Shown here piece after piece: positions 1,656 to 27,730 of a stretch of 34,938 nt of DNA. Below the pieces are notes generated by a model, which was not told where the DNA came from, did no database searches, and saw only the letters and a program-made list of their open reading frames with translations. Source of the stretch: Piscirickettsiaceae bacterium CG07_land_8_20_14_0_80_44_28 (GTDB taxonomy: Bacteria; Pseudomonadota; Gammaproteobacteria; Thiomicrospirales; Thiomicrospiraceae); assembly GCA_002779995.1 (NCBI GenBank), contig PEWX01000071.1, positions 10,522 through 45,459 on the forward strand. Reading direction: 5' to 3'. A program made the translations under genes and the position numbers. Numbering within the stretch: position 1 is the stretch's first letter; each line of letters begins with the position of its first letter.

Positions 1656-1665
1656 CCAGGCCTGG
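1656..1665. repeat. CCAGGCCTGG palindrome, copy 1 (intergenic)
   Basis: The only exact copy outside a gene, between the aminotransferase stop and the lipoprotein start. Its symmetry extends to GCCAGGCCTGGC, and A/T runs flank both sides (AAAAATAG ... CCATTTTT). Read on the minus strand, the short stem plus TATTTTT might also act as a weak terminator for the aminotransferase gene. Confidence 0.8.
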
Positions 1666-1696
1666 CCATTTTTGCTGATTAAAAAGAGGGGGGTGT

Positions 1697-2881
1697 TTAT
1701 TTTGTGTTGATAAATTGGTCAATCCGATCTAAAGCCTTAGCCAAGTTTTCCATACTGGTGGCAAAAGAAATACGCAAGTGTCCTGCTGCACCAAATCCAG
1801 AACCGGGCACCGCTGCGACATCGACACTTTCTAAAATGGCAGTGGCAAAATCTGCGTCCTGATCAAATCCCTTTTGCTTCATGGCATCTTTAACATCCAT
1901 AAAGGCATAGAATGCCCCCGCTGCGGGTAAACATTTAAACCCTGAAATGGCATTGACTCGCTTTACCACAAACTCATGGCGTTTTTTGAATTCAGTCAAC
2001 ATGGTTTGAATACAGTCTTGAGGGCCATTTAAGGCTTCTACCGCAGCCGCTTGCGAAATAGAGCAGGGATTTGAGGTGCTTTGAGATTGAACTTTTCGCA
2101 TGGCAGTAATTAAGTCTTTGGGTCCCCCTGCATAGCCAATGCGCCAGCCGGTCATCGAATAAGCTTTAGATACGCCATTCATGACAACCGTGCGGTCTTT
2201 TAACTCAGGACAGACTTCAAGAATATTGGTGAAGGGCGTGTCATTCAGCAGGATATGTTCATACATATCATCAGAGGCAATGATTATGTTGGGATACTGT
2301 AACAGTATTTCGGCCAATGCCTGTAATTCGTTGGCGGTATAAATAGCGCCAGTGGGGTTGGATGGACTGTTGATCACTACCATTTTGGTTTTGTCGGTAA
2401 TGGTCGCTTTCAGTTGAGAAGCGGTGATTTTGAATTGTTGTTCAATGTCCGTTTCAATGATAACCGGAACGCCGCCCGCCAGTAAGGCCATGTCAGGGTA
2501 AGAAACCCAGTAAGGCGCAGGGATAATCACTTCATCCCCGTCGTTTAACAAGCCTTGGCAAAGGTTAAAGAAACTTTGTTTACCCCCGGAGGAAACCAAA
2601 ATTTCATTACTTTGAAAGTTCAGGTGGTTGTCACGTTTGAACTTCTCAATAATCGCCGATTTCAATTCTGGTGTGCCGTCAACCGCAGTATAGCGGGTTT
2701 GTCCAGCGTTAATGGCCGCAATACCAGCCGCCTTGATATGATTCGGTGTGTCAAAGTCAGGTTCACCGGCACCTAGGCTAATAATGTCTTTTCCTGCCCG
2801 TTTCAATTCGGCTGCTTTGGCGGAAATAACAAGGGTTAAAGAAGGTTGGACACGATTAACACGATTTGACAATCTAGACAT
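1697..2881 (-). CDS. aspC: Class I PLP-dependent aspartate aminotransferase
   Basis: Cytosolic PLP enzyme predicted to interconvert aspartate/2-oxoglutarate and oxaloacetate/glutamate. The full-length 394-aa protein shows the fold-type I landmarks: substrate-loop motif GAGEPDFDTP near residue 38, NSPSNPTGA (171-179), the D205/Y207 cofactor contacts in ASDDMYEH, and the Schiff-base lysine K239 in SKAYSMTGWRIGY followed by the phosphate-binding Arg. A C-terminal Arg in GHLRISFA would bind the substrate carboxylate. The sequence resembles the subgroup typified by Thermus rather than the E. coli AspC type, so related amino or keto acid specificities (for example prephenate) cannot be excluded. 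Transcribed divergently from uvrB. The gene symbol is a functional guess. Confidence 0.85.
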   Translation of the reverse strand: MSRLSNRVNRVQPSLTLVISAKAAELKRAGKDIISLGAGEPDFDTPNHIKAAGIAAINAGQTRYTAVDGTPELKSAIIEKFKRDNHLNFQSNEILVSSGGKQSFFNLCQGLLNDGDEVIIPAPYWVSYPDMALLAGGVPVIIETDIEQQFKITASQLKATITDKTKMVVINSPSNPTGAIYTANELQALAEILLQYPNIIIASDDMYEHILLNDTPFTNILEVCPELKDRTVVMNGVSKAYSMTGWRIGYAGGPKDLITAMRKVQSQSTSNPCSISQAAAVEALNGPQDCIQTMLTEFKKRHEFVVKRVNAISGFKCLPAAGAFYAFMDVKDAMKQKGFDQDADFATAILESVDVAAVPGSGFGAAGHLRISFATSMENLAKALDRIDQFINTK

Positions 2882-3110
2882 GGGCGTAGGATCTCATCAA
2901 TAGTAAATGGGTGTCATGAACCGGAGACTCAGCCGCTTAAAAATAAAGCGCTTATAAGGTTTCGTACAGTGACACGCTCAGGTAAAATATAGGGTTCATT
3001 TTACAACCAAATGAATTTCTTTTTAAGACAAAATTTTTAATTGAAGGGTCATTTGTTATTTGGGTTTGAAAGATGTTCGATAAAGGGTAAAAAAGGACTT
3101 TCCACTCATT

Positions 3111-5156
3111 ATGGCCAAAGCATTTCAAATTGAATCTAACTATCAGCCTGCAGGAGATCAACCGACGGCTATCGCTGAGTTGGTAACAGGACTTGAGGAT
3201 GGTGAAGCCTTTCAAACTTTATTAGGGGTTACCGGTTCCGGAAAAACCTTTACCATGGCCAATGTCATCGCTCAGGTGCAACGCCCAACGATTATTTTGG
3301 CGCATAATAAAACCTTAGCAGCCCAACTCTATGGCGAAATGAAGAGTTTTTTCCCGCATAATGCGGTTGAATATTTTGTGTCTTACTATGATTACTATCA
3401 GCCCGAAGCCTATGTCCCCGCATCGGACACTTATATCGCCAAAGATTCATCCGTTAATGAACAAATTGAACAATTACGCTTATCTGCAACCAAAGCACTA
3501 TTGGAAAGGTCGGATGTGGTTTTGATTGCAACCGTCTCTGCCATTTATGGGTTGGGGGATCCTGATCAGTATTTAAAAATGATTTTGCAATTGCGTTTGG
3601 GCGATAAGCTGTCGCGACAAATGATTTTAGAAAAATTGGCGACCATGCAATATACCCGTAATGATATGGAGCTTTGGCGAGGCTGTTTTCGGGTGAGAGG
3701 GGATGTCATTGATGTGTTCCCCGCAGAAGCTGAAGAGTATGCGGTGCGTATAGAGTTGTTTGATGATGAAGTGGATGCTTTAGCCTGGTTTGATCCCCTG
3801 ACGGGAGAGGTGTTAACCCGTCCGACCCGGGTGACGGTTTATCCCAAGTCACATTACGTGACGCCAAAAGAGCGGGTCTTAGAAGCCATTGAAAAAATCA
3901 AGGTGGAATTGAAAGACCGTTTGGCAGACTTGCGAGAAAATCATAAATTGGTTGAGGCGCAGCGCTTGGAGGAACGAACTCGGCTGGATATTGAGATGAT
4001 GACGGAACTGGGGTATTGCTCAGGTATTGAAAATTATTCTCGGTATTTGTCCGGGCGGGCAGAAGGTGAATCGCCACCAACCTTATTGGATTACCTACCT
4101 GCAAATGCGTTAATGTTTATCGATGAAAGTCATGCCACCATTCCTCAGATAGGGGGCATGTATAAAGGGGATCGATCCCGTAAAGAAAATTTGGTGAATT
4201 TTGGATTTCGGTTACCCTCTGCTTTGGATAATCGTCCGATGCGTTTTGATGAGTTTGAACAGATTTTGCCACAAACGATTTTCGTGTCAGCAACCCCATC
4301 AACTTATGAAGCGGAGCATCAATCGAAGGTGGTTGAGCAGGTTGTGCGACCGACGGGGTTGTTAGACCCCGAAATTGAAGTCCGCCCCGCGTTAACCCAA
4401 GTGGATGATTTGCTGGGTGAGATTCGTTTGAGAGTGAATGCAGAAGCGCGGGTTTTGGTCACCACTTTGACCAAACGTATGGCAGAAAATTTAACGGAAT
4501 ATCTGGAAGAGCACCAAGTGCGGGTGCGTTATTTACACTCAGATATTGATACAGTGGAACGGATCGAAATCATCCGTGATTTACGGTTGGGTGAGTTTGA
4601 TGTGTTGGTGGGGATTAACTTATTGCGAGAAGGTTTGGATATCCCGGAAGTATCCTTGGTGGCTATTTTAGATGCCGACAAAGAGGGGTTTTTACGCTCT
4701 GAGCGATCTTTAATTCAAACCATTGGTCGGGCAGCGAGAAATGTGGCGGGTAAGGCCATATTGTATGCCGATAAAATCACGGTTTCGATGCAAAAAGCCA
4801 TAGATGAAACGCAACGTCGCCGCACCAAACAGATTGAGCATAATCTTGCACAAGGCATTACCCCGCAAAAATTAAATAAAAAAATTACCGATATTTTAGA
4901 AGATTCACCCTATGCATCAAAGCCGGGTGCCTCTGCTGCTCAATTAAAGGCGGCTGAAATAGAAGGGCACTATGATGATCAGAGTGTCTCTCCTGTGAAA
5001 CGAATGACCCCCGCACAGCTTGCTTCTCAGATTAAACAGATGGAAAAACAAATGTTTAAAGCGGCAAAGGATTTGGACTTTGAAAAGGCCGCAGAACTGC
5101 GTGATCAATTAAAGTCGATGAAATCTTCACTGGTTGGAATCGGGGATTTGCGATAA
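3111..5156 (+). CDS. uvrB: UvrABC excinuclease subunit B
   Basis: Damage-verification helicase of nucleotide excision repair; it takes the lesion from UvrA and positions UvrC. At 681 aa it has the usual length. Visible landmarks are Walker A GVTGSGKT (39-46), the beta-hairpin segment [12 protein letters not shown] that clamps DNA, helicase motif II DESHAT (338-343), the ARNVAGKAI region of motif VI, and a C-terminal UVR domain ([16 protein letters not shown]) that contacts UvrC. The start MAKAFQ followed by YQPAGDQP matches the family N-terminus; an AAGGA-type ribosome site lies upstream. I found no clear LexA box of the E. coli type in the 229-bp divergent region, so SOS control is not evident. 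Confidence 0.97.
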
Positions 5157-5230
5157 GATAGCGCTTTATTTTGAACGGAATAACGAGCGGTGCCCGAGCA
5201 ATAATGATTGAATCTACGAAGGTTGAGTGA

Positions 5231-6064
5231 ATGTTGGTAAAAGGCGGGATGATGAAACTAGGCTGGCAAGTGATAGAAAAGTCAGCTTGGGTTGGTTTGA
5301 TGGCGGTGTTTTCGCTGTCGTCAGTGCAGGCGAATCCAGATTCAACGCTACAACAAACCTTGCAAAAAGCTGAAGCTGCGATGCAGCAGCAAGATTTTAA
5401 AACCACCATTGATTTATTAAGCCCTTTGCACCAGGCGAATCCGACCAACTTAACCATCGGCAATAATTTGGCAGTTGCCTATATTCGTCAACAGAATTAT
5501 CAGCAGGCGCAGCAGGTGTTGGAAACCCTGCTCAATAAATTGCCAAAAATCGCAACCTTGCGTCAAAATTTGCAGCAAATCTACGCTTACCAAGCCCAGT
5601 TGGCTTATCAAGACGTGTTTCATTCTAGAGAGGTTGAGCAGCCAAAAGGGCAATGGATTTTATCAGCAGATATTGAAGTCGACCCAGATGAAGTGGTGGC
5701 TTTAAAGCAGGTAGAATTTGATATTGCTGAGGTGACGCAGCAGCTTGAAGCTTGGCGAACCGCTTGGTCAGCTCAAAATCTTCGGACATATCTGGCCAGT
5801 TATCAGTCGGATTATTATGCTGAAGACTTCAAAAATCGCCAGGCCTGGGAACAAAATCGCCAAGCCAGCGTGACAGGACCAAGCTTTATTCGTGTTCAAC
5901 TGGAAGATATTACTGTGGTTCCTATCGCTAAAAATGTGATTCAGGTTGGTTTTTGGCAATCCTATGAATCTAATCGATTTAAAGATAGGGTTCGCAAAAA
6001 ATTACTTTGGCAAAAATCCCCGCAAGGCTGGAAAATTATGCAGGAAGCAGTGATTTATGAATAG
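5231..6064 (+). CDS. Exported TPR protein with C-terminal NTF2-like domain
   Basis: Probably a periplasmic partner of the L,D-transpeptidase encoded next to it. A signal peptide (hydrophobic core then VQA-NP near residue 35) precedes two or three tetratricopeptide repeats (NNLAVAYIRQQNYQQAQQVLETLL) that would bind protein. The last 100 residues (from about 175) form an alpha+beta module of the NTF2/SnoaL type, often found beside L,D-transpeptidases (W-x-x-AW-S-x-x-x-x-x-YLASY ... KLLWQKSPQGWKI). The downstream gene overlaps by 8 nt, so the two are translationally coupled. Two further in-frame ATGs at 5249 and 5252 follow a GGCGGG stretch, so the true start could be six or seven codons later. 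The function is inferred from architecture and context. Confidence 0.75.
   Translation: MLVKGGMMKLGWQVIEKSAWVGLMAVFSLSSVQANPDSTLQQTLQKAEAAMQQQDFKTTIDLLSPLHQANPTNLTIGNNLAVAYIRQQNYQQAQQVLETLLNKLPKIATLRQNLQQIYAYQAQLAYQDVFHSREVEQPKGQWILSADIEVDPDEVVALKQVEFDIAEVTQQLEAWRTAWSAQNLRTYLASYQSDYYAEDFKNRQAWEQNRQASVTGPSFIRVQLEDITVVPIAKNVIQVGFWQSYESNRFKDRVRKKLLWQKSPQGWKIMQEAVIYE
5839..5848. repeat. CCAGGCCTGG palindrome, copy 2
   Basis: Lies in the TPR protein gene and is read as CAG-GCC-TGG (Gln-Ala-Trp). The upstream flank is AAAAATCG. Confidence 0.8.
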
Positions 6065-7169: not shown

Positions 7170-7181
7170 AAAACCTAAAGT

Positions 7182-8060
7182 CTAATCCGGTTCGCCAATC
7201 TTGGTTTCTACCCAGTTTTCGATATCTTTAAGCATAATTTGAATTTCTTGAGCAGAAGGCATGGTGCCAGCTGATCTGAGCTCTAAAGTGAGCACGGGAA
7301 TATTTAAATACTCCCCGGCATAGCGCCCCAAAGAACCTGGATAGGTTCCGAGGGCACGATGACGAAGGTGGCCGATTTTGTTCGGTAGGGCATGTTCCGG
7401 GCCATCATAATCTAGCAGTCCATAGGGGGCGTGGAGCGAAATAATGGCATGGGGGTGGAAACGTTCTATCAGTTGAACCAGCCACTGGGTTTCCGGTTCG
7501 CTATTGGCGTTTTCTCCGGGAAATCGTCTCGGGTTTTTGCCTGTGTGGGTTTGCCAGGTTTTTAATGCCAAGCGGTTCCAGTCCGGAGAGGGGAAGTTGC
7601 GGTTTAAATCAACCGAGTTGGCATTGGTTCGGGTTGCAGGAGATTGAAATAATCCATCCGGGTTGGCTAAGGGTAAAAATAGCCAGTGATAATCTGTCAT
7701 GGTTGCAGGGTCTAATAGCGTTTTTAGCCAAATATAAGTAAGGCTAATGGCGGCATATTCATCGCCATGAATGCCGCCAATAAATAAAATACGTCCCTTT
7801 GGTGGAAGCGTTTTGGGCTTAGGAATCACTTCCTTATAGGTTAAGAGTCGTTGCTCAACGCTTTGGTGTTTGAAGCTGGCATGAAGTTGAAGCGCCAAAC
7901 AGTCTTGGTGTTTAACGGTACGCAATTTTTTGGATAGGTCGTAACAAAATTGTTGTGTCATGTTGGTGAGACTGGGCGGAGCGGCTTGTAGCTGGCCGCT
8001 GCCAATAACCGCAAAAAGCAGCAAGAATCGCCAGGCCTGGGAGTTTTTGGTCATTTTCAC
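7182..8060 (-). CDS. M14 zinc carboxypeptidase, murein peptide amidase-like
   Basis: An exported metallopeptidase of the M14 family, close in layout to MpaA, which removes diaminopimelate from murein peptides during wall recycling. Zinc ligands are H98 and E101 in GGIHGDE and H210 in SLHAPYG; R154 in DLNRNFP would bind the substrate carboxylate and E260 in LTLELR is the catalytic glutamate. Unlike E. coli MpaA, which is cytoplasmic, this protein has a signal peptide (core FLLLFAVIG, cleavage near QAA-PP). The start is GTG at 8060, whose GTGA overlaps the pilU stop; an ATG two codons later (8054) is an alternative. It ends 12 nt from the convergent L,D-transpeptidase gene, so both neighbours act on the wall. 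Confidence 0.85.
   Translation of the reverse strand: MKMTKNSQAWRFLLLFAVIGSGQLQAAPPSLTNMTQQFCYDLSKKLRTVKHQDCLALQLHASFKHQSVEQRLLTYKEVIPKPKTLPPKGRILFIGGIHGDEYAAISLTYIWLKTLLDPATMTDYHWLFLPLANPDGLFQSPATRTNANSVDLNRNFPSPDWNRLALKTWQTHTGKNPRRFPGENANSEPETQWLVQLIERFHPHAIISLHAPYGLLDYDGPEHALPNKIGHLRHRALGTYPGSLGRYAGEYLNIPVLTLELRSAGTMPSAQEIQIMLKDIENWVETKIGEPD
8031..8040. repeat. CCAGGCCTGG palindrome, copy 3
   Basis: Lies within the signal-peptide coding part of the M14 peptidase gene and is read as Gln-Ala-Trp. The plus-strand left flank is AAGAATCG. Confidence 0.8.
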
Positions 8061-9229
8061 GCTTTATCCTTATCCTCTTGGGGAGGGGTGTCTTGCATCG
8101 AAAGTTTGGCTTCGTCGGCCTGTGCAGAGGCTATGTTTTCCGGCAAGGGTCGTTGGCTATTGAGCTTAATATTAAGACGCAAGTCATTGAGTGAGTCGGC
8201 ATTGCGCAAAGCGTCCTCATAGCGGATGGCATCTGCTTCATAGAGGTCGAATAGCGCTTGATCAAAGGTTTGCATGCCTTGCGATTGGGAGGCTTGTATG
8301 AGCGCTTTCATTTCCCCAACCTGACCATTAAAAATCAATTCGGACATACGTGGCGTATTGATGAGCACTTCTACGGCAGCAATGCGTCCACCGCCGTTTT
8401 TGGGCAGGAGGCGTTGTGAAATAATGGCTCTGAGATTGAGAGACAGATCCATTAACAGTTGGTCACGGCGCTCTTCCGGAAAGAAATTAATAATGCGATC
8501 TAATGCTTGATTGGTGTTATTGGCATGGAGTGTTGATAAGCATAAATGCCCCGTTTCGGCAAAGGTAATGGCATGTTCCATGGTGTCTTGTGAACGAATT
8601 TCACCAATCAGAATGACATCGGGCGCTTGGCGTAAGGTGTTTTTTAATGCGGTTTCATAACTGTCCGTATCCACCCCCACTTCCCGTTGAGTGACAATAC
8701 AACTTTGGTGTTGATGGACATATTCAATCGGGTCTTCAATGGTGATGATGTGACCCTCGGTGGTGCGGTTGCGATGGTCGATTAAACTGGCCAGCGAGGT
8801 GGATTTCCCGGAACCGGTACCGCCGACAAACAAGATTAAACCGCGCTTTTCTAAAATCAATTCTTTCAGTATGGTTGGCAAATTTAGACTTTCAAATGAG
8901 GGGATATGGGCTTCAATGCGGCGAATCACACAGCCGGAAAGGCCTTGTTGCATAAAAGCACTGACTCGAAAACGGCTGATATTGGCTAATTGATAAGCAA
9001 AATTGGCTTCGCGTTGTTGATTAAACTCGGTTTGTTGTGCGGGGTTCATGAGCGCTAAGGTGAGTTGGCGTGCCGCATCGGCTGTGAGCGGATCTTTGGT
9101 TAAGGCTTGAATGCGACCACTCACCTTCATTGAAACCGGGGCGTGAGCAGTTATAAAAAGATCGGATCCTTGTTGTTTAACAAAAGCATTTAATAGCGCA
9201 TGAAGTTGTTGGTGTAAGGTTGCCGTCAT
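8057..9229 (-). CDS. pilU: Type IV pilus retraction ATPase, PilU type
   Basis: Hexameric ATPase that works with PilT to depolymerise type IV pili during twitching and DNA uptake. The 390-aa protein has Walker A GGTGSGKST (136-144), the Asp box around ITIEDPIEYVH, Walker B DVILIGEIR, and the His box ETGHLCLSTLHANN. The tail past the common core (to residue 390, ending in an acidic/lysine stretch) and the TVLxS-free N-terminus fit PilU rather than PilT. It lies 11 nt behind pilT with an AGGAAA ribosome site, and its stop overlaps the M14 peptidase start. Confidence 0.92.
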   Translation of the reverse strand: MTATLHQQLHALLNAFVKQQGSDLFITAHAPVSMKVSGRIQALTKDPLTADAARQLTLALMNPAQQTEFNQQREANFAYQLANISRFRVSAFMQQGLSGCVIRRIEAHIPSFESLNLPTILKELILEKRGLILFVGGTGSGKSTSLASLIDHRNRTTEGHIITIEDPIEYVHQHQSCIVTQREVGVDTDSYETALKNTLRQAPDVILIGEIRSQDTMEHAITFAETGHLCLSTLHANNTNQALDRIINFFPEERRDQLLMDLSLNLRAIISQRLLPKNGGGRIAAVEVLINTPRMSELIFNGQVGEMKALIQASQSQGMQTFDQALFDLYEADAIRYEDALRNADSLNDLRLNIKLNSQRPLPENIASAQADEAKLSMQDTPPQEDKDKA

Positions 9230-9240
9230 GAGGTTTCCTA

Positions 9241-10278
9241 TTAAATAAAGTCGGTTTTATTAACCGCTTTTTGACGGGCGGCTTCTTTGCTGATGGTTTG
9301 TTTTTTAACGAGACGTTGTAAATCTTGGTCGAGGGTTTGCATCCCCATTTTATTGGAGGTTTGAATAATCGAATTCATTTGTGGCACTTTATCTTCGCGA
9401 ATCAGATTGCGAATGGCAGACGTCCCTAACATAATTTCGTGCGCGGCAACGCGACCGCCGGTTGGTTTTTTGAGTAACGTCTGAGAAATAACGGCTTTTA
9501 AAGATTCGGATAACATGGAGCGTACCATGGCTTTTTCAGCAGCCGGAAACACATCAATAATCCGATCAACCGTTTTAGCAGCAGAGCTGGTATGCAGGGT
9601 TCCAAAGACTAAATGACCGGTTTCGGCTGCCGTCAGCGCGAGGCTAATGGTTTCTAAATCGCGCATTTCTCCGACCAAAATGACATCAGGATCCTCGCGT
9701 AACGCCGAGCGCAAGGCAGCACCGAAGCTTTGGGTGTCGCGATTGACTTCGCGTTGATTGACTAATGAACGTTTTGATTGGTGTACAAATTCAATGGGGT
9801 CTTCAATGGTGAGAATATGGGCAGCTTGGGTTTGGTTGATATAGTCGATCATAGCTGCCAGTGTCGTCGATTTACCCGAGCCGGTGGGCCCTGTGACCAA
9901 TACAATGCCTCGAGGGGTATTGGCAATGTCCTTAAAGATTTCGGGTGCATGAAGGTCTTCCAGAGAAAGCACGGTGCTCGGAATGGTTCTAAAGACCGCG
10001 CCGATGCCGCGGTTTTGTAAAAACACATTGACCCGAAAACGTGCCAGTTTGGGAATTTCAAAGGAAAAGTCCACTTCAGATTGAGCTTCAAATTTTTGGC
10101 GTTGTGCATCATTCATGACATCGTATACTAGAGTTCGCATGGCATCTCTGTCGAATGCGGGCATATCAATGCGATGGATTTCACCATCCGTTCTGAGCAG
10201 GGGGGGCATGCCTGCTGAAAGGTGTAAATCTGAAGCATTTTGCTGCACACTAAAGCTTAATAATTGCGTAATATCCAT
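9241..10278 (-). CDS. pilT: Type IV pilus retraction ATPase PilT
   Basis: Main retraction motor of type IV pili at the inner-membrane base. At 345 aa it matches the family. It shows Walker A GPTGSGKST (130-138), the Asp box ILTIEDPIEFVH, Walker B DVILVGEMRD, the His box ETGHLVFGTLHTSS, and the C-terminal AIRNLIRE motif needed for retraction. A GAGG ribosome site lies before the ATG. It sits 10 nt after holC, so pepA, holC, pilT, pilU and the M14 peptidase gene form one tight run. Confidence 0.95.
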   Translation of the reverse strand: MDITQLLSFSVQQNASDLHLSAGMPPLLRTDGEIHRIDMPAFDRDAMRTLVYDVMNDAQRQKFEAQSEVDFSFEIPKLARFRVNVFLQNRGIGAVFRTIPSTVLSLEDLHAPEIFKDIANTPRGIVLVTGPTGSGKSTTLAAMIDYINQTQAAHILTIEDPIEFVHQSKRSLVNQREVNRDTQSFGAALRSALREDPDVILVGEMRDLETISLALTAAETGHLVFGTLHTSSAAKTVDRIIDVFPAAEKAMVRSMLSESLKAVISQTLLKKPTGGRVAAHEIMLGTSAIRNLIREDKVPQMNSIIQTSNKMGMQTLDQDLQRLVKKQTISKEAARQKAVNKTDFI

Positions 10279-10288: not shown

Positions 10289-10735
10289 TCACGGTATTTT
10301 ATGGAGTACTGGGTCAAATCCTAGGGATTGGTATCTTCTCCATCTATCACGTCCGCGTTGAATCAGCTCTGGAGACTGATCTAACACTTCAATGGTTCTT
10401 TGATAGCTTTGAAAGTAAGTCTGAAAGTCTGGGTGTAAGTTGACTAATATATCATGGCAAGGTCGGTCCACCTGGTCGAACCATAGTTGGATTGGCGCAG
10501 GGGGATTTTGGGCAATGGCATGGGGAATAAAGGCTTCAGGTTTAAATAGCCAGATGGCTTCATCCAGGGCGGTTAATTCGGCCGGGTGGTGACAGCAAAT
10601 ATCACAGTGACGATTTTGTTGCCAAATCTTTTGAACCAGTTTGCAGACAAAGTGCTGCCTTGATGCCAAGTCCGAGCTATTTAATACATAAAACAACACA
10701 TCGGGGGTATCAGAAGGCATGGCGTTAGTGTTCAT
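10289..10735 (-). CDS. holC: DNA polymerase III chi subunit
   Basis: Clamp-loader accessory that links SSB to the psi subunit. The 148-aa protein shows the chi pattern: FYVLNSSDLASRQHFVCKL, then a Cys/His-rich DICCHHPAELTALDEAIW, FIPHAIAQ, and a late VDRPCHDILVNL ... RWRRYQSLGF. It overlaps the pepA stop by ATGA, the familiar pepA-holC order of gammaproteobacteria; valS, the usual next gene, is replaced by pilT. A second ATG five codons in is possible. Confidence 0.88.
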   Translation of the reverse strand: MNTNAMPSDTPDVLFYVLNSSDLASRQHFVCKLVQKIWQQNRHCDICCHHPAELTALDEAIWLFKPEAFIPHAIAQNPPAPIQLWFDQVDRPCHDILVNLHPDFQTYFQSYQRTIEVLDQSPELIQRGRDRWRRYQSLGFDPVLHKIP

Positions 10736-12213
10736 TGCTGGCGGAGTAAGTAGTCAACCAAAGCAGGTACCGGACGGCCGGTTGCGCCTTTGCTTTTACC
10801 GCTGATCCAAGCCGTCCCCGCTATGTCTAGGTGTGCCCAGTGGACGGATTCCGTAAAGCGGGCTAAGAATTGTGCTGCGGTAATTGTGCCGGCAGGGCGG
10901 CCGCCAATATTGGCCATATTGGCAAAATTTGATTTGAGTTGTTCATCATACTCTTCACTTAACGGCATTTGCCAAAAACGATCATAAGTTCTCAGACCAG
11001 ATGACAAAAGATCCGCTATCAGCGGCTGATGATTGCCTAATAACGCAGACATCTCATGTCCTAAAGCAATAATGCAAGCACCGGTTAGGGTCGCCATATC
11101 AATAATTTTGCAGGGCTTGTAGGTTTGCTGAGCATAGGTTAAGGCATCGCATAAAATCAGGCGGCCTTCTGCATCGGTATTGAGAATTTCAATGGTTTGC
11201 CCTGATAAAGAAGTGACAACATCCCCAGGCTTAATGGCATTACCGGCGGGCATGTTTTCAGTGGCAGGTATGACCGCCACCACATTAAGTTTGGGCTTGA
11301 GTTGTCCAAGCGCTTTAAAAACGCCCAAGACAGTGGCGGCGCCTCCCATGTCATATTTCATTTCATCCATGGCGTCGCCGGGTTTGATAGAGATACCCCC
11401 GGTATCAAAGGTCACGCCTTTTCCGACTAATGCAATCGGAGCCTCTGTTGGATCTGCACCGTGATAAGCAAGACAAATCATTTTTGGTGGGGTATGTGAC
11501 CCTTGAGCAACCGCCATAAAAGCGCCCATGCCCATTTCGATCATTTCTTCGCTATCGAGAATGTTGACGTCAAAGCCATATTGGTCACCCAGTTCAACGG
11601 CGGTTTCGGCGAGATAACTCGGTGTGCAAAAATTACTGGGCATATTCGCCAGGTCTTGGGTTAAAGCCATCCCTAATGCAGTGGCCTGTGCCTGCTCAAG
11701 TTGCGATTTTAAGGCCTCGCTGGCAGCAACATTAAAAGTGATTTGAGCCAGTTTTGGGTTTTTAAGCTCCGCTTTATTGCGGCTTTCATGTTCATAGTCG
11801 TAAAGGCTACGCTGAATCATTAATGTGTTTTGGTAAATTGCCCAGGCCTGGTCGTTTTGGGCAGGAAAAACATCGATTAAACCGTTTAAAACCCGTTGCG
11901 CACCGCTGTTGTCTAAGGCTTTAGCGGCCGCATTTAAACTGTCTAAATAGTTTTTGTTAGAGAGGGTTTTGGCCGATCCCATGCCAACCAATAGCAGGCG
12001 TGTGCATGGCGAGTCGGGGTGTTGTAGCAGCATTTGAACCTCAGCAGGCTTGCCTGAAAAATCGCCTGCCTTAACCAAATCAGCGGTAAGGGTCTCAAGG
12101 TGAAACTGCTGACCCAGTTCGGTGGTGTTGCCCTGCTCAAACACGGGTAAAATTAGGGTGTCATAATCCGATAAGGTGTTGGTTTGTTGCAGTTGGAACT
12201 GGATTTGTTTCAT
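10732..12213 (-). CDS. pepA: Leucyl aminopeptidase (M17), PepA
   Basis: Cytosolic dimanganese/dizinc aminopeptidase; in E. coli PepA also binds DNA and assists Xer recombination. The 493-aa protein has the M17 signature NTDAEGRL (345-352), with metal ligands K265, D270, D288, D347 and E349 in VGKGVTFDTGG, KYDMGG and the signature. The N-terminal macro-like domain is present. A MITE-like element begins 36 bp upstream of the ATG, so part of the original promoter region may have been displaced. The gene carries one CCAGGCCTGG copy. Confidence 0.95.
   Translation of the reverse strand: MKQIQFQLQQTNTLSDYDTLILPVFEQGNTTELGQQFHLETLTADLVKAGDFSGKPAEVQMLLQHPDSPCTRLLLVGMGSAKTLSNKNYLDSLNAAAKALDNSGAQRVLNGLIDVFPAQNDQAWAIYQNTLMIQRSLYDYEHESRNKAELKNPKLAQITFNVAASEALKSQLEQAQATALGMALTQDLANMPSNFCTPSYLAETAVELGDQYGFDVNILDSEEMIEMGMGAFMAVAQGSHTPPKMICLAYHGADPTEAPIALVGKGVTFDTGGISIKPGDAMDEMKYDMGGAATVLGVFKALGQLKPKLNVVAVIPATENMPAGNAIKPGDVVTSLSGQTIEILNTDAEGRLILCDALTYAQQTYKPCKIIDMATLTGACIIALGHEMSALLGNHQPLIADLLSSGLRTYDRFWQMPLSEEYDEQLKSNFANMANIGGRPAGTITAAQFLARFTESVHWAHLDIAGTAWISGKSKGATGRPVPALVDYLLRQQ
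11842..11851. repeat. CCAGGCCTGG palindrome, copy 4
   Basis: Lies in pepA and is read as Gln-Ala-Trp (DQAW). On the coding strand the flank is AAAACGA. Confidence 0.8.
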
Positions 12214-14766: not shown

Positions 14767-15984
14767 TTATTCTTGCCGTAATTCTATCTCAATCTGTTTA
14801 TAAACCGACCCGACGGTAATGGCATCCATGCAAACCGGCTCAGTACAGGGCGTTTTGCGGTGATTGGCGGCACTGACACAAGGCGAACAGGCCAGTCCGG
14901 CAAAAATTGGGGTGCTATTACCGAGAGAACCATAGAGCTTGGGGGTTTCAGGGCCGAATAACACATAGGTTTTTAGGGGCGTAATCGACGAAAAATGCCC
15001 AGGCCCGGAGTCATTGGTGACCATCAGTCTCGACACGGAATACAGAATGGGCATTTGCAATAATTTAAGCTGACCGGCAAAGTTAATACAACGCGGGTTA
15101 GCAACTTTTAGGCGCAAGGCTTCGGCTTCTTCTTTTTCATTCGGTGCGCCGGTGATTAAAATCAAGGCGTTTTCATAGCGCTGCAATAGTTGCTGCATCA
15201 GTTGAATGAAATTGTGCTTGGGCCAGCGTCTTTGTGGTAATAGATCACTGGCATTGGGGTTAATGAGCAGTAGCTGGTGTTGGGTTTGATCGTAACCTGC
15301 ATAGCAGGCACTGATTTTTCGATAAACGTCTGCTTTTTCGTCATCGCTGAAAGTCACCTGATCCAGTTGGATGGCATCATCGGTAATCAGCACTTTGGAA
15401 TAGGGGACTTCCGGGGTTTCGGCTTTGAGGGCATGAATCAAGGCCATAAAGTTTTTGGCAATGTGGATGTGGGGATTGTAGCTGACTTTGTGTGTTAAGA
15501 GGTCGCCTCGATAGAGGCCTTCGCCATGGAAATTGTGATAGCCCACGCGATTGCCGGCACCGCTAAAGCCTGTAAGCAAGGCCGAGACGCGGGAAAACAA
15601 TTCTAAATCCACCGCAGTATCAATGTGGTGTTTTCGGCACCAGATTAAATAGCGAATGGCATCGCGCATTAGTGTCCATAAGGAATCCTCGCAAAGTGTA
15701 AAAATATGATGCTGAGGAATGGTGTTGAGCAGATCCAAACTGGGCTTGTTTTTGCTAAAAATAACAAAAAACAATTGCGCATCAAAGTGCTTTTGAGCAT
15801 GCTTCATGGCGGGATCCGCCAAAATGGTACTGCCCATTTCGGACAACTCTACAAATAAGATATTTTTAGGGGGCGTGGTTTTCGGCTTGCGAATCCGGTG
15901 GGCGGTTTTGAGTAGTAATGTGCCTAAAAAGGTTAAGGGGATTCCTAGGTGATGGTCAAGTTTGCGCATTAAATCGACGTTCAT
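14767..15984 (-). CDS. Glycosyltransferase family 9, heptosyltransferase-like
   Basis: Likely transfers a heptose or related sugar in LPS or another surface glycan. The 405-aa protein has the GT9 two-domain layout: an N-terminal domain from NILFVELSEMGSTILADPA and a C-terminal nucleotide-sugar domain with NPNASDLLPQRRWP and NDSGPGHFSSITPL. Near the C-terminus is a Cys cluster, ACSPC followed by KTPC and PVC (four cysteines), as in some heptosyltransferase-like proteins; it may bind metal or form disulfides. It lies 7 nt after the flippase-like gene. The acceptor and sugar are unknown. Confidence 0.82.
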   Translation of the reverse strand: MNVDLMRKLDHHLGIPLTFLGTLLLKTAHRIRKPKTTPPKNILFVELSEMGSTILADPAMKHAQKHFDAQLFFVIFSKNKPSLDLLNTIPQHHIFTLCEDSLWTLMRDAIRYLIWCRKHHIDTAVDLELFSRVSALLTGFSGAGNRVGYHNFHGEGLYRGDLLTHKVSYNPHIHIAKNFMALIHALKAETPEVPYSKVLITDDAIQLDQVTFSDDEKADVYRKISACYAGYDQTQHQLLLINPNASDLLPQRRWPKHNFIQLMQQLLQRYENALILITGAPNEKEEAEALRLKVANPRCINFAGQLKLLQMPILYSVSRLMVTNDSGPGHFSSITPLKTYVLFGPETPKLYGSLGNSTPIFAGLACSPCVSAANHRKTPCTEPVCMDAITVGSVYKQIEIELRQE

Positions 15985-16994: not shown

Positions 16995-18527
16995 TTATTC
17001 GAGGTACTCTAATGGATTGTTTGCTAATTCCGTTACCCAGCCATGATATTGAACTGTTTGAAAGTCTTGGCAATGATAAAAATAATAGCGTACCACTGTA
17101 TTTTGATGACGAATAATCGGCAAGGTTTTTAAGTGTCGGCAATGGTTAAAATGACCAGGCCTGGCTGTGGCGGGTGGATGGGTTTCGTAACCGGGAATAA
17201 TAACTAATCCATCACTGCCGGTCGGCGGGTTACCAAACCACAAATCGAACTGATCAAACCGATTGTCGGTAACATAGACCGGTTGTGGAGCGGCATACCA
17301 AGCAATGCGACTGGCTTGTGTCCAATTGCTGGCAAATAACGGTACTTTAAGCGATTGTTGCAGTTTTTCGGCCTCTGCTATCGCTTGCGGCCAGCCATGG
17401 AGTTCACGGACAAGGTTGTTTTTTTCGGTTAACGGCATCCAAGGCGTTGCCAATTGACTGTTTAACAGCACTGAAAGCGTGAGGGTGAGTGCGCTACTGA
17501 AATAAACGCTGATGCGTAACCATCGTTGTGACCAGTGTTGCCAGCAATAATAAACAATGGCCGGGCTCATCAATAGCCAAGCCGGTTGCGTCCAATGAGG
17601 GAGACTCATTTCATAGCCGGCATTCCAGCCGAATAACACAATAATGGGTAAGCTAAAACTGCTTAAGATTCGAATGGCTGCTTGGGTTTCAGCGTTCGCT
17701 GTGGGTCGCCAGCAAGTTAACATCAGCGCAATGCCTGCGATAAACAGTAGCAGTGAATAGACGCCCATTTGTAACAGTTGTGAGTTGACAAATCGTTGCC
17801 ATTGCCAGTCGGTGTTTTGGGTGCCGTGGTGAATTTGGTATAAAAAAGACAGCCAATCATGCTGGACATTCCACCACAAAATGGGTGAAGTCATTAGCGC
17901 AGTCAGTGCAATCGCCAGCCAGAGGCCACGGTTTTTTAGCCAGTCAAATCGGCGTTCCAGCAACAGAATAATCACTAAGGAGAACACAAGGGTGATGGCG
18001 GTGTATTTAGACAGGGCAGCAATGCCAAGCCAAAATCCCAGCCATAAGGCACTGCGAAATGCTTTGGGTGAGGTGGCGGCTTCTTCCCGTAAATTGAGCA
18101 GGGACCATACCACCATTAAGCTGGCGAGCATTAAAGGGGTATCGGGTAGCATCGAAACACTCAGTAACTGAAACATAAAAGCGCTATTAATCAGCGCCAA
18201 TGTCCAAAAACCGATCCAATCAAAGTCTGGAAAAAGTCGTCTCGCGATTCGGTAAAGAACGATGTTGGCCAATGCAAAGAATAGCACGGGGAGGGTGCGA
18301 AGGTGCATCTCGCTTTGTCCAAATTGCAGTGCAACGGCATTGAGCCAGCCAACCATCGGTGGATGGTCAAAATAACTCCAATCCGGTTTTAGGCCATATA
18401 GGGCATAGTGGGCTTCATCGACACTGAGGGTCACTTGACCCGCTAAAAAAAGGTGCCAAATTGAAAGGACGAGCACCAGCCAAAAACTGGCTTTCGCCGA
18501 GGGGGTTTGTGGGCGCCAGTGAGACAT
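16995..18527 (-). CDS. GT39/ArnT-type membrane glycosyltransferase
   Basis: Predicted to move a sugar from a polyprenyl-phosphate donor to lipid A, a glycan or a protein on the periplasmic side. The 510-aa protein has about ten membrane segments. The first periplasmic loop carries the catalytic-type acidic pair VDEAHY (D37, E38), followed by SYFDHPPMVGWL (D54), the PMT_2 family hallmark. The C-terminal 130 residues are soluble. Its start overlaps the epmB stop (TAATG), so the two are coupled. A 94-bp gap separates it from the flippase-like gene. Not every family member modifies lipid A, so arnT is not assigned. Confidence 0.82.
   Translation of the reverse strand: MSHWRPQTPSAKASFWLVLVLSIWHLFLAGQVTLSVDEAHYALYGLKPDWSYFDHPPMVGWLNAVALQFGQSEMHLRTLPVLFFALANIVLYRIARRLFPDFDWIGFWTLALINSAFMFQLLSVSMLPDTPLMLASLMVVWSLLNLREEAATSPKAFRSALWLGFWLGIAALSKYTAITLVFSLVIILLLERRFDWLKNRGLWLAIALTALMTSPILWWNVQHDWLSFLYQIHHGTQNTDWQWQRFVNSQLLQMGVYSLLLFIAGIALMLTCWRPTANAETQAAIRILSSFSLPIIVLFGWNAGYEMSLPHWTQPAWLLMSPAIVYYCWQHWSQRWLRISVYFSSALTLTLSVLLNSQLATPWMPLTEKNNLVRELHGWPQAIAEAEKLQQSLKVPLFASNWTQASRIAWYAAPQPVYVTDNRFDQFDLWFGNPPTGSDGLVIIPGYETHPPATARPGHFNHCRHLKTLPIIRHQNTVVRYYFYHCQDFQTVQYHGWVTELANNPLEYLE
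17155..17164. repeat. CCAGGCCTGG palindrome, copy 5
   Basis: Lies in the GT39-type gene, in a different reading frame from most copies: codons read Ala-Arg-Pro-Gly. The plus-strand flank is AAAATGA. Confidence 0.8.
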
Positions 18528-19483
18528 TAATGGCTTTCCTGTGTTGGGAAAATGAGGGTTTTATAGGGCTCGCCAGCGATTTCTGTCACCAATCTCGGCA
18601 CTAAATAGCCCGGCAGTTTTTGGCGAAGCTGGTCGAAAAGTACCCAGGCCTGGTCATTTTTGACTTCAAAATGAGCGGCTCCTGCCACCTTATCCAACTG
18701 ATGGCAATAGTAGGGCAGCACGCCTTGTTGAAACAGTTTTTTACTCAGTTGAGCTAAGGTTGTAACGTTATCATTCACCCCTTTTAATAACACTGACTGA
18801 TTGAGCAGGGTGATGTTTGTGGCTTTCAGGGTTTGAAATAAACGCGCAGTTTCATCGCTAAGTTCATTAGCATGATTGCAGTGAATGACCAATACAATGT
18901 GTAATCGACTCGCTTTGAGCAGTTGCCATAATAACGGCATTTCAGCACGGTTTGGTGCCACGACGGGTGTTCGGGAGTGAATTCGAAGTGTGGTCAGGTG
19001 GGGAATCTGCTCCAGTTTTGTCAAGAGTTCCATTAAACTGTTTTGCGATAAACTGAGCGGGTCGCCGCCGCTTAAGATAACTTCTTCAATGGACGGGTTG
19101 GCGGCGATTTGTTCCAGCGCGGTTTGCCAGTGCTGTTTTTTGGCTTGTTGGTAGGGAAAGTGACGGCGGAAACAGTAACGACAATGAATCTCACATCGGC
19201 CACTGGCAATTAATAGCGCGCGCCCTTGGTATTTGTGAATCAAACTGGGCGTCGGGTTGGCCTTTAGGTCGCCGACCGGATCGAGGCTAAACCCTTCAAC
19301 AACCGTTTTTTCAGCCAGGCCTGGTAGAATTTGGCGCAATAATGGGTCATTTGGCCGGTGCTTTTCAATTTGCAGTGCAAAGTGTTTGGGGACTTTCAGT
19401 GGGAAATCAGTTTGAAAATCGCAGCCTAAGTCGGCAGCCGAAAGCCCAATTAAATCACAGAGTTCAGTGAGTGAATGAATCAT
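18527..19483 (-). CDS. epmB: EF-P lysine 2,3-aminomutase EpmB
   Basis: Radical-SAM, PLP-dependent enzyme that makes (R)-beta-lysine, which EpmA attaches to EF-P. The 318-aa protein shows the radical SAM triad C97-x3-C101-x2-C104 in CEIHCRYCFRRHFPY, the ILSGGDPLSL motif, and LLKGVND. A lysine near the C-terminus (QLDKVAGAAHFEV) would hold PLP, as in lysine aminomutases. It is divergent from efp-epmA across 98 bp, the conserved neighbourhood of this modification pathway. Two palindrome copies lie inside it. Confidence 0.95.
   Translation of the reverse strand: MIHSLTELCDLIGLSAADLGCDFQTDFPLKVPKHFALQIEKHRPNDPLLRQILPGLAEKTVVEGFSLDPVGDLKANPTPSLIHKYQGRALLIASGRCEIHCRYCFRRHFPYQQAKKQHWQTALEQIAANPSIEEVILSGGDPLSLSQNSLMELLTKLEQIPHLTTLRIHSRTPVVAPNRAEMPLLWQLLKASRLHIVLVIHCNHANELSDETARLFQTLKATNITLLNQSVLLKGVNDNVTTLAQLSKKLFQQGVLPYYCHQLDKVAGAAHFEVKNDQAWVLFDQLRQKLPGYLVPRLVTEIAGEPYKTLIFPTQESH
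18644..18653. repeat. CCAGGCCTGG palindrome, copy 6
   Basis: Lies in epmB and is read as Gln-Ala-Trp (NDQAW). On the coding strand the flank is AAAAATGA. Confidence 0.8.
19315..19324. repeat. CCAGGCCTGG palindrome, copy 7
   Basis: Lies in epmB but in a third reading frame: codons read Pro-Gly-Leu. The coding-strand flank is AAATTCTA, so the A-run is interrupted. Confidence 0.8.
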
Positions 19484-23456: not shown

Positions 23457-23492
23457 GTTGTTTGTAGCTTCTCTCCCAGGGGGACAAAAGTT

Positions 23493-23524
23493 AACCGTGT
23501 TCGTATAGCGCACGGTTTTTTTTA
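23493..23524 (+). terminator. Rho-independent terminator after the copper receptor gene
   Basis: AACCGTG, a loop, CACGGTT, then a run of T. The 7-bp stem starts 37 nt past the receptor stop codon, and the T run reaches the stop codon of the convergent regA gene at 23522. Confidence 0.85.
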
Positions 23525-25401: not shown

Positions 25402-25671
25402 TGAGAACTGAGCTATGTTAATAGCATTGATTTAAAAAAACCAGTTAAATAGCGCAATTGTCGATGTGTCTCAATGATTATCGCTTAGGGTTGGTTTGAT
25501 CGAATACTTAGGATGAAAAAAGTGGGCTTGACAGGCAGGGTATAATAATCTAAAGAGCACGCTCAACAGATCTTTTCGTTGATTTTGTTGTTGGCTCTTG
25601 ACTAGGCCTTGCCGATAGTGCAGATTGCAAAAGGCCATAATCCCTATGATACTGACTTTCAGGAGAAACAC

Positions 25672-26313
25672 ATGTCAGATTTGCCTATCACGCAAAGATC
25701 CGTAATGACTTTATTTTCAGATTCGAAAAGCCCAAGTTCCCATCGTGTGCGTTTGATGGCGCAAGAAAAAGACATTCCACTTGAAATTATTGAAGTTGAT
25801 ACATCCGCAGGCATGCCGGAAGATTTAATTGAATTAAACCCTTACGGGACTTTGCCAACCCTCGTTGATCGTGATTTGGTTTTATATGAACCTCAAGTGA
25901 TTGTGGAATATTTAGATGAACGTTTTCCGCATCCGCCTCTGATGTCAGTCGATCCGGTTGCTAAAGCTCGAGCACGGCAAATGTTACGTCAAATTGAACA
26001 GGAATGGTACCAGTTGGCAGATACCATTGTGCAGAAAGAGGATGAAGAAGCGGCAAAATTGGCTCGTCGTGACTTGCAAGAACGCATCATTCAGATGATT
26101 CCGGTCTTTGATCATCAGCCTTATTTTATGAGTGAAGAATATTCTTTGGTTGATGTCAGTTTGGCGGTATTGATGTGGCGCTTACCTTACTTAGGCATTG
26201 AATTACCAAAGTCGGCAAAAGCCATTCAAGATTATTCAGATAAAGTGCTTTCTAGAGAGATGTTTATGGAAAGTTTATCGGATGATGAGCTGGATATGAG
26301 AGAAGTCTATTAA
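25672..26313 (+). CDS. sspA: Stringent starvation protein A
   Basis: RNA-polymerase-associated protein with a glutathione-transferase fold, involved in stationary-phase and acid-stress transcription. The 213-aa protein starts MSDLPITQRSVMTLFSDSKS, directly after AGGAGAAACAC, an excellent ribosome site; the frame is open for 21 more codons upstream but without a comparable signal. The thioredoxin-like domain contains LNPYGTLPTLVDRDLVLYE and the helical domain contains YSLVDVSLAVLMWRL. sspB follows 12 nt later, the normal arrangement. Confidence 0.93.
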   Translation: MSDLPITQRSVMTLFSDSKSPSSHRVRLMAQEKDIPLEIIEVDTSAGMPEDLIELNPYGTLPTLVDRDLVLYEPQVIVEYLDERFPHPPLMSVDPVAKARARQMLRQIEQEWYQLADTIVQKEDEEAAKLARRDLQERIIQMIPVFDHQPYFMSEEYSLVDVSLAVLMWRLPYLGIELPKSAKAIQDYSDKVLSREMFMESLSDDELDMREVY

Positions 26314-26325
26314 AAGGATCGCAAT

Positions 26326-26724
26326 ATGCTTTCAAATCGCCCTTATTTAATTCGTGCTATGTTTGATTGGATTGTTGATAATCATTGGACGCCACATGTG
26401 CAACTAGATGTGAATTATCCGGGGATTACGGTGCCGAGAGAATATGCTCAAGAGGGTGTTTTGGTCTTGAATATTCATCCCGAGGCGATTCGTGATCGAC
26501 AGTTTCACAATGATTGGTTTGCGTTTAAAGCTCGGTTTCAAGGTGCTGAGCGAGAAATTGGCTTTCCGCCTGAAGCCGTGTTAGCTATTTTTGCACGTGA
26601 AAATGGTCAAGGGATGCCTTTCCCTCCTGAGCCTTATCCTGATGCAGCGTCTAATTTGCAAAATCGTGACTCTGAAACAGACACTTCTGCTAAAAAGAAA
26701 CCCCATTTATCTATTGTGAAGTAG
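26326..26724 (+). CDS. sspB: ClpXP adaptor SspB
   Basis: Delivers ssrA-tagged proteins to ClpXP. The 132-aa protein has the SspB core (NRPYLIRAMFDWIVDNHWTPH, the FKARFQG strand and the substrate groove) and a flexible acidic linker. It ends in HLSIVK, which fits the ClpX-docking tail (E. coli LRVVK). An AAAGGA ribosome site precedes it. Its last 14 bp overlap the end of the convergent mvaD gene. Confidence 0.93.
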   Translation: MLSNRPYLIRAMFDWIVDNHWTPHVQLDVNYPGITVPREYAQEGVLVLNIHPEAIRDRQFHNDWFAFKARFQGAEREIGFPPEAVLAIFARENGQGMPFPPEPYPDAASNLQNRDSETDTSAKKKPHLSIVK

Positions 26725-27730
26725 GCTTTTTGTAGTCCTCGTTAAAAGGTTGAATAATTTTGAGATGTGGGAAGCTTGACTGGAGTTGCTGTTGATCTTT
26801 CTCTAAAAACAGTAACTTGAGATTAGGCCCCGCATCCATCGTGAAGTAAACTTCGGTACCTTGTGCGCGAAGTTGCCAAACTTGTTGCATGGCTTGGATA
26901 CTGTCGGGTTGAAAATAACAGATGGGTGGCCAAGTGGCGAGCATCGTGGCATGCATGCTTAACGCATTGTTTTCTGCTGTGGTTCCTAACAGGGTGAAAT
27001 CCTGTTGGCTAATCGCCGTTTGTAAAGTCTTAAAATCTGTTTCGGCTTTTTCGGGCCAAGCCTGGTATAGATCGCAGTGGTTGACGGTTTGTTGCATGCC
27101 TTGTGTTGAGCCAATGGGCTTTTCTGAAAGATCGATTTCTAATAATCCAATATTCAAATTTGGCCAGGCCTGGTCAATTTTCTCAGCAAAACTGTCCATC
27201 CCATCAGGTTGTCGGCCTTGATGCCACATCACAAATCCAGTATCTATCGAGCGGCTGGCACTGCCACTGCCTAAACGAGCCAATAAAGAAAGCGATTTTG
27301 GGTCGAGTTGCCATTGAAAACAATCATTTAATGCTAACACCAAAGCAGCATACCCTGAAGCAGAAGAGGCAAGCCCTGCCGCTGTGGGGACGCTATTGTG
27401 CGTTTTTATGTCGAAGCCGCCTTGGGGGTTGGGGCGAAAGGGATCTAAAAATTGGCTGATTCGTGTCGCAAAGGGCTGTTGAGGGGTGCAAGGTTGGTTA
27501 TTTAATGTCACAGTGTCTTGGCTGCTCTCAATCCATTGTAGGGTGGTTTTAGTTCCCAGGCCTGGCAAACTGATTGATAAGCTACTATTGGTGGGTAGGT
27601 TAAGCTCAATGTCTCGTTTTCCCCAGTATTTTGCTAGGGCAATATTGACATTGGCATCTCCCTGTCCCACTTGTTTAGGGGTTCTGTGCGGGATGATTCG
27701 GTGAATAAATTGATGTTTTGGCGATGGCAT
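26711..27730 (-). CDS. mvaD: Diphosphomevalonate decarboxylase
   Basis: Last step of the mevalonate pathway: ATP-dependent decarboxylation of mevalonate diphosphate to isopentenyl diphosphate. The 339-aa GHMP protein has the hallmark ANVNIALAKYWGKRD (26-40), TNSSLSISL, the phosphate loop PTAAGLASSASGYAAL, and RLGSGSASRS. It is the third of three minus-strand GHMP genes and starts 8 nt after the upstream one. Two palindrome copies lie inside it. Confidence 0.93.
   Translation of the reverse strand: MPSPKHQFIHRIIPHRTPKQVGQGDANVNIALAKYWGKRDIELNLPTNSSLSISLPGLGTKTTLQWIESSQDTVTLNNQPCTPQQPFATRISQFLDPFRPNPQGGFDIKTHNSVPTAAGLASSASGYAALVLALNDCFQWQLDPKSLSLLARLGSGSASRSIDTGFVMWHQGRQPDGMDSFAEKIDQAWPNLNIGLLEIDLSEKPIGSTQGMQQTVNHCDLYQAWPEKAETDFKTLQTAISQQDFTLLGTTAENNALSMHATMLATWPPICYFQPDSIQAMQQVWQLRAQGTEVYFTMDAGPNLKLLFLEKDQQQLQSSFPHLKIIQPFNEDYKKPTSQ
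27164..27173. repeat. CCAGGCCTGG palindrome, copy 8
   Basis: Lies in mvaD and is read as Gln-Ala-Trp (DQAW). On the coding strand the flank is AAAATTGA. Confidence 0.8.
27556..27565. repeat. CCAGGCCTGG palindrome, copy 9
   Basis: Lies in mvaD and is read as Pro-Gly-Leu, the same frame as copy 7. The flanks lack a clear A-run. Confidence 0.8.

Follow-up and report, generated by a model that had tools for sequence, protein, structure and literature searches.

The palindromic ten-mer CCAGGCCTGG occurs nine times in a 34,938-nucleotide stretch (the window) of contig PEWX01000071.1 from Piscirickettsiaceae bacterium CG07_land_8_20_14_0_80_44_28, a genome that we place in the genus Hydrogenovibrio. 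By analogy with known systems, we propose that this Hydrogenovibrio species probably has a DNA uptake sequence with CCAGGCCTGG as its core, one dialect of a family-wide system. Somewhat less firmly, we lean towards the view that this is a third, independently evolved uptake-sequence system, in which the word would have moved within the family between palindromes (CCAGGCCTGG, ACCGGCCGGT and ACAGGCCTGT) and asymmetric words with a single A/T arm, dragging along hundreds of sites and, in places, amino acids. The original prediction had likened the ten-mer to the highly iterated palindrome HIP1 of cyanobacteria or to DNA uptake sequences. The second likeness is supported by the dialects, by replacement at an orthologous site, by an A/T footprint in Hydrogenovibrio, by inverted pairs and the closeness of intergenic copies to stop codons, and by the lack of strand polarity in the one chromosome half tested; the first is not supported.

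The genome that holds the window (G000) comprises 2,279,771 bases in 122 contigs. The eleven genomes of its genus (g1, G000-G010) were taken as Hydrogenovibrio, G004 matching H. marinus MH-110 and G007 Hydrogenovibrio sp. SC-1. Genera g6 and g5 presumably correspond to Thiomicrospira and Thiomicrorhabdus, and the family to Thiomicrospiraceae. Copies of the ten-mer were counted in 62 genomes of the family, profile matches and dialect words in 60. Open reading frames (ORFs) were called mechanically, and therefore all genic fractions are approximate.

The ten-mer is over-represented in the window and genome-wide

The exact copies and the one-mismatch copies in the window are as follows; no strand is assigned to them.

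1656..1665, core site 1, intergenic, footprint about 1648-1673 (AAAAATAGCCAGGCCTGGCCATTTTT)
5839..5848, core site 2, ORF 5231-6064 (TPR / Cds6_C), peptide RQAW
8031..8040, core site 3, ORF 7182-8060 (peptidase M14), peptide SQAW
11842..11851, core site 4, ORF 10732-12213 (M17 aminopeptidase), peptide DQAW
17155..17164, core site 5, ORF 16995-18527 (PMT_2 mannosyltransferase), peptide ARPG
18644..18653, core site 6, ORF 18527-19483 (EpmB-like radical SAM protein), peptide DQAW
19315..19324, core site 7, EpmB-like ORF 18527-19483, peptide PGLA
27164..27173, core site 8, ORF 26711-27730 (diphosphomevalonate decarboxylase), peptide DQAW
27556..27565, core site 9, decarboxylase ORF 26711-27730, peptide PGLG
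14999..15008, one-mismatch copy CCAGGCCCGG
27056..27065, one-mismatch copy CCAAGCCTGG, new to this analysis
28949..28958, one-mismatch copy CCAGGCCTGT

All nine exact copies, originally found by eye, were verified. In 100 dinucleotide-preserving shuffles of the window the mean was 0.02 copies and the maximum 1, and CCAGGCCTGG tops the over-represented ten-mers of the window (9 versus 0.021 expected under an order-3 Markov model). Eight copies are genic, as the original prediction had it, although they lie in six ORFs and not seven: the EpmB-like ORF 18527-19483, whose product we take to be EpmB, and the diphosphomevalonate decarboxylase ORF 26711-27730 carry two each. Likewise, the one-mismatch copies reported at 14999 and 28949 are present, but the one at 27056 had been missed, and the total is three rather than two. 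The genic copies are read in three frames, as x-Gln-Ala-Trp five times, Pro-Gly-Leu twice and Ala-Arg-Pro-Gly once, and one copy is intergenic, in agreement with the earlier description. Protein-level selection was correctly ruled out as the cause, since the copies are read in three frames, some lie between genes, and the encoded residues change with the dialect of each genome (see below).

The excess extends to the whole G000 genome, which contains 404 copies of CCAGGCCTGG and none of the reversed word. A 372,491-base sample of this genome, which takes in the window, contains 71 copies, whereas Markov models of orders 1-4 expect 0.16-0.34 (0.27 at order 4). Orders 5 and 6 expect 3.4 and 26.5 copies in the same bases, higher values that arise because the word contributes to its own sub-words. 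Thus, the count was not close to the Markov expectation, and the copies are not confined to the window. Within Hydrogenovibrio, seven genomes hold 404, 367, 599, 461, 677, 367 and 673 copies and the other four 0-1; across the family, 27 genomes hold 100-856 copies, five 15-44 and 30 only 0-8, with the reversed word never exceeding two. Hydrogenovibrio sp. SC-1 and Thiomicrospira sp. WB1 are named carriers. Among 369 genomes drawn from the whole class, the 365 that do not belong to the family contain no more than 46 copies each; the top two counts (46 and 45) come from genomes of 4.8 and 5.7 Mb.

Samples of 60-80 kb each from G014, G024, G028, G029 and G030 yielded no clear word, and neither did 20 kb each from G042, G050 and G051. 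A 20-kb sample proves little, since that of G021 lacked the ten-mer although its genome has 397 copies. Literature searches on the word itself, uptake, palindromes, competence and Hydrogenovibrio/Thiomicrospira gave no description of the motif among the matches listed, in titles and abstract openings that included few subscription journals. The Hydrogenovibrio genome paper PMC6501319 has no text on the motif, its sole instance of 'palindrom' falling within the expansion of 'CRISPR'.

Relatives use other words, in places at the same sites

The four Hydrogenovibrio genomes without the palindrome (G003, G004, G008 and G009) use related asymmetric words. Word counts, made in 100 kb each of G003, G004 and G008 and in 70 kb of G009, gave CCAGGCTGGG in G003, CCAGGTTGGG in G008 and CCAGGGGTGG in G009. 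In G004 CCAGGTTGGG was seen by a directed pattern; an unrelated repeat topped the word counts there. This repeat of H. marinus, with about 18 copies in the 100 kb, formed no tandem array in the one stretch checked. The dialect words, whose opposite-direction forms are CCCAGCCTGGYAGATTTT, CCCAACCTGGYAGATTTT and CCACCCCTGGYGATTTTT, are non-palindromic and carry an A/T tract on one side only. Genome-wide, the 18-mer CCCARCCTGGYAGATTTT has 273 exact copies in G003, 265 in G004 and 325 in G008, occurs once each in G006, G010 and G022 and is missing from the other 54 of the 60 genomes, while its reversed pattern is absent from all 60. The G009 word is CCACCCCTGG. Further words were found in the g5 genomes: ACCGGCCGGT in G026 (34 sites in 80 kb), the asymmetric CCCGGCCTGT in G022 (15 in 80 kb) and the looser ACAGGCCTGT in G023 (8 in 80 kb, with 31 of the inner CAGGCCTG). 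The tetranucleotide CCTG is common to six of the seven dialect words, ACCGGCCGGT being the one without it.

In single-gene trees of two genes, G003, G004 and G008 form one group with support of 100/99 in both; the MiaB tree covers nine of the eleven genomes. Because the placement of G009 and the root are unsure in these trees, we do not claim a direction of dialect change.

At one orthologous position the exchange of words can be followed across the genus. In the EpmB-like gene (core site 6, window position 18644), each of the nine Hydrogenovibrio genomes compared (all but G002 and G005) carries its own dialect word, aligned base for base: CCAGGCCTGG in G000, G001, G006, G007 and G010, CCCAGCCTGG in G003, CCCAACCTGG in G004 and G008, and CCAGGGGTGG in G009. 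The encoded peptides follow, DQAW, HQAW or AQAW in the palindromic dialect corresponding to TPAW, to TPTW or PPTW, and to RQGW in the others. The asymmetric word in G003, G004 and G008 is oriented opposite to that in G009, which is what change from a palindrome would allow. A second case is the YbeY-like gene, where G000 and G007 have CCAGGCCTGG and G009 has CCAGGGGTGG at the same codon positions; no word stands there in G001, G003, G004 and G008. When the genic sites of G000 were used as query, same-dialect comparisons kept the site in 14 of 24 cases.

A longer site surrounds the ten-mer in Hydrogenovibrio

The ten-mer is embedded in a longer site with A/T tracts in Hydrogenovibrio. Over 66 sites of G000, A occupies 57-79% at positions -8 to -4, a pyrimidine 98% at -3 and A or G 84% at -1, with the mirror image on the other side. 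With five further sites included (71), genic and intergenic copies share this flank pattern, which is weaker in genes; it also appears in small samples of G001 and G006/G010. Both arms were rich in 27 of the 71 sites, one in 31 and none in 13, where 25, 34 and 11 are expected; hence the arms are independent, and the data do not show that either a dyad or a single arm is required.

Of the asymmetric dialects, that of G003 retains the tract within genes: all 17 genic copies keep the 18-mer within two mismatches (10 exact, five with one and two with two). As none of them is accompanied by an inverted copy in the surrounding 90 bases, the tract is not merely the tail of a terminator. The genic copies of G004 (4/4) and G008 (6/6) are within one mismatch. 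In G009 the bases beyond the A/T tract look patterned, T-rich 8-9 bases further out; the other dialects are without this feature.

Placement of the copies and alternative explanations

Positions in G003 were sampled in 27 stretches (532 kb), 21 of them in the positive-skew half of the chromosome, the other half being thinly sampled. At least one copy was present in 25 of the stretches, and one of the two without is the most GC-poor. Among the 49 intergenic G003 copies with both neighbours known, 25 lie in tandem, 23 in convergent and one in divergent gaps, divergent gaps making up 10,761 of the 49,780 gap bases (22%). The corresponding numbers for G000 are 14, 8 and 1, and its intergenic copies lie a median of 28.5 bp from a stop codon. 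Genic and intergenic copies number 47 and 23 in G000.

We considered whether the sites could be kept by selection for binding of a chromosome-organising or regulatory protein (nucleoid-associated, or similar to SlmA, Noc or MatP), whose dimer would hold the palindrome and the A-tract arms at hundreds of places. The dyad-symmetric footprint with A-tract arms in G000 and the spread of copies across the sampled part of the G003 chromosome are in line with such a protein. However, the one-armed, non-palindromic words of four congeners are hardly the product of a homodimer, the divergent gaps, where promoters lie, hold just one of the 49 placed intergenic copies in G003 and one of 23 in G000, and no restriction between origin and terminus was seen in the sampled half of G003. 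This explanation therefore appears unlikely, although it fares better than those that follow.

A HIP-like element, which a cytosine methyltransferase and mismatch repair would create and maintain, is considerably less plausible still. In its favour, the word consists of two abutting CCWGG sites around GGCC/AGGCCT, and a study of cyanobacteria matches alternate HIPs to methyltransferases (PMC4390886). Against it, the dialects of G003, G004, G008 and G009 are asymmetric and the methyltransferase families do not follow the word. PF00145 was detected in five of the eleven Hydrogenovibrio genomes, namely G000 (two fragments at contig ends), G001 and G010, which have the palindrome, and G008 and G009, two of the four that do not; it was not found in four of the seven palindrome-rich genomes (G002, G005, G006 and G007). 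PF01555 scored above the cut-off only in G000, G004 and G010, with a weak broken match in G005, and is missing from four of the seven rich genomes. The link was rejected on the palindrome-rich genomes G002, G006 and G007, which have neither PF00145 nor PF01555, PF02086 not having been searched. According to the same study (Elhai 2015, PMC4390886), Pfam families do not predict methyltransferase specificity, and thus this family test is coarse.

A Chi-like or KOPS-like (FtsK-orienting polar sequence) site guiding RecBCD or FtsK would explain an over-represented, species-specific and, in G000 and the Thiomicrospira-like genomes, mostly genic word, and Chi words also differ between species. In three genomes, moreover, the published plus strand carries somewhat more copies of the asymmetric 18-mer than the minus strand (155/118 in G003, 149/116 in G004 and 176/149 in G008), a bias for which we offer no explanation. 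Nevertheless, a palindrome cannot point one way and the intergenic excess lies in tandem and convergent gaps. The G003 sample contains 35 plus and 32 minus copies; GC skew flips sign between 1.12 and 1.16 Mb, and in the positive-skew half (21 stretches) 28 plus versus 25 minus copies reveal no replication-strand polarity. We regard a guiding site of this kind as highly improbable.

Equally improbable is that the word is primarily a transcription terminator or a dispersed repeat of the repetitive extragenic palindromic (REP) type. In favour of this, 49 of the 66 placed G003 copies lie between genes, with a median distance of 32 bp to a stop codon, and an inverted partner (at most five mismatches) accompanies 24 of 50 intergenic copies. 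Against it, ORFs hold 47 of the 70 placed copies in G000 and 34 of 35 in six Thiomicrospira-like genomes, so termination is not the common function, and the genic G003 copies retain the A/T tract without a partner. Together, G003, G004, G008 and G009 contain 17 inverted pairs at 22-32 bp spacing, 10 of which have the outer A-tract/T-tract that a two-way terminator would need; none occurs in the G000 sample, where the palindrome itself is able to fold. The intergenic copy of the window (core site 1), 31 bp past the stop codon of the minus-strand ORF 1697-2881, folds as RNA to -15.9 kcal/mol on the minus strand (z -2.24), which favours a terminator, and to -11.5 on the plus strand (z -1.43), and it was not among the sites listed by a consensus terminator scan.

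None of these explanations accounts at once for dialects that are asymmetric, for A/T tracts at genic copies and for inverted pairs. The palindromy of CCAGGCCTGG is the symmetry of one dialect.

A proposed DNA uptake sequence and its putative machinery

From these sequence comparisons we infer competence, uptake bias, a receptor, termination and a process of accumulation. A receptor at the cell surface, for which a type IV minor pilin is the likeliest candidate, would bind the core and the flanking A/T tract, which in Hydrogenovibrio would make a site CCTGG-Y-n-R-ATTTT read outward. The outward flank YnRATTTT resembles that of the uptake signal sequence (USS) of Pasteurellaceae. Pilus retraction would pull the DNA in, and ComEC would move it through the inner membrane. 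Same-dialect DNA would be preferentially taken up and recombined, leading the word to accumulate at tolerated places of the chromosome, and after a shift in receptor specificity the sites would follow. Copies near stop codons, single or in inverted pairs, may double as terminators.

The gene comEC (PF03772) was detected in 55 of the 60 genomes, including all eleven of Hydrogenovibrio; it is necessary for the uptake proposal, yet not diagnostic. The window itself contains one pertinent locus:

8057..10278, minus strand, two T2SSE-family ATPases (PF00437 matches)

Judging from the gene pair, we take these ATPases to be PilU/PilT-like; they are candidate pilus retraction motors for the proposed uptake. 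GspH/FimT (PF12019), tried as receptor, scored above the cut-off in only three of the 60 genomes, each with 1-3 word copies. A search with PF07963 revealed a cluster of four to five N-methyl (pseudo)pilin genes (in G000 on contig C70, 4198-6176) in six of the seven palindrome genomes (not in G002) and in none of the four asymmetric-dialect genomes; by gene lengths it is GspG-K-like, and its link with the palindrome may reflect phylogeny alone.

A further pilin-type locus was noted. Beside miaB, nine Hydrogenovibrio genomes share a cluster whose conserved genes are minor-pilin-like and have LPCPD motifs, followed in G000, G001, G006, G009 and G010 by a response regulator and a further ORF (with HATPase_c in G000) and bearing in G001 and G007 a C-terminal repeat extension.

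Several observations weigh against the uptake-sequence interpretation. In-place replacement is not the rule: cross-dialect comparisons with the G000 genic sites hold the other word in only four of 24 cases, all at the EpmB site, the proteins in these comparisons being also somewhat more divergent. Six Thiomicrospira-like genomes show weak A/T tracts (A 27-51% at -8 to -4), and those of G020 and G031 are patchy (19-50%). Genic copies of G009 keep the flank less well, three of six within two mismatches and three with three, and two of the six genic G008 copies have an inverted partner. In seven of the 17 inverted pairs the tract lies in the loop, and the proximity to stop codons is missing in G006/G010 (median 200 bp, 4 copies) and G026 (median 85, 9 copies). 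As to the machinery, comEC does not track the word, being present also in G014, G024, G028, G029 and G030, which showed no clear word in 60-80 kb. A minor-pilin profile (A2), tried as receptor, matched in 53 of the 60 genomes, some of them without a detected word, and gave no clean link; none of the pilins searched (PF12019, PF07963 and profile A2) could be tied to the word. Finally, perfectly palindromic cores are, to our knowledge, not typical of either the DNA uptake sequences (DUS) of Neisseriaceae or the USS.

As far as we know, Neisseriaceae and Pasteurellaceae are the only families in which uptake specificity by genomic words is established. A third one, consisting of free-living chemolithoautotrophs, would mean that the trait is not confined to host-associated bacteria. 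If the proposal is true, the family would let one follow, as a natural experiment, how a code for self-recognition changes and keeps species apart. The dialects of close congeners can be compared at orthologous codons, making co-change of the receptor and its scattered sites directly testable, and the dialect pattern would predict which species exchange DNA.

Other features of the window

Mevalonate-pathway genes, found here in a gammaproteobacterium, occupy 26711-29707 and comprise the diphosphomevalonate decarboxylase and two kinase-like ORFs, named as kinases by reading. From 30515 to 34938 the window reaches the edge of an integrative element, where a tRNA-Ser (gga) precedes a phage-type integrase (30825-32057) and, from 33619 onward, a ParB_N protein. 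This end of the window, from 30.8 kb, has zero copies of the word, but measures only about 4 kb.

Comparison with known systems

CCAGGCCTGG is like HIP1 and the alternate HIPs of cyanobacteria (PMC4390886) in that it is a GC-rich palindrome, is highly iterated and gives way to a different word in some relatives. Unlike HIP1, it has no matching pattern of PF00145 or PF01555, its dialects include asymmetric words, and it comes with A/T-tract flanks and inverted pairs.

The DUS of Neisseriaceae are ten-mers with species dialects in which CTG is required for transformation, according to Frye et al. 2013 (PMC3630211). The Hydrogenovibrio-family words share with them a very high over-representation as ten-mers, dialects within one family and a short common core; the CCTG of six of the seven words recalls the required CTG, although this may be chance. 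They differ from DUS in that their cores can be perfect palindromes, that A/T tracts flank them in Hydrogenovibrio and that they belong to another bacterial class. The copy number is also lower here (100-856 per rich genome) than the 1,892 copies of N. meningitidis, a figure quoted in PMC7811141.

For the USS of Haemophilus influenzae and other Pasteurellaceae, published work describes a GC-rich core beside A/T tracts that are important for uptake (PMC7811141), inverted pairs that form terminators (PMC5217627) and a receptor candidate, ComN (PMC12616744). The Hydrogenovibrio site resembles the USS in its GC-rich core adjoining A/T tracts and in its inverted pairs, whereas its core is unrelated, the palindromic dialect has arms on both sides, and several dialects (those of G000, G003, G008 and G009) coexist in one genus.

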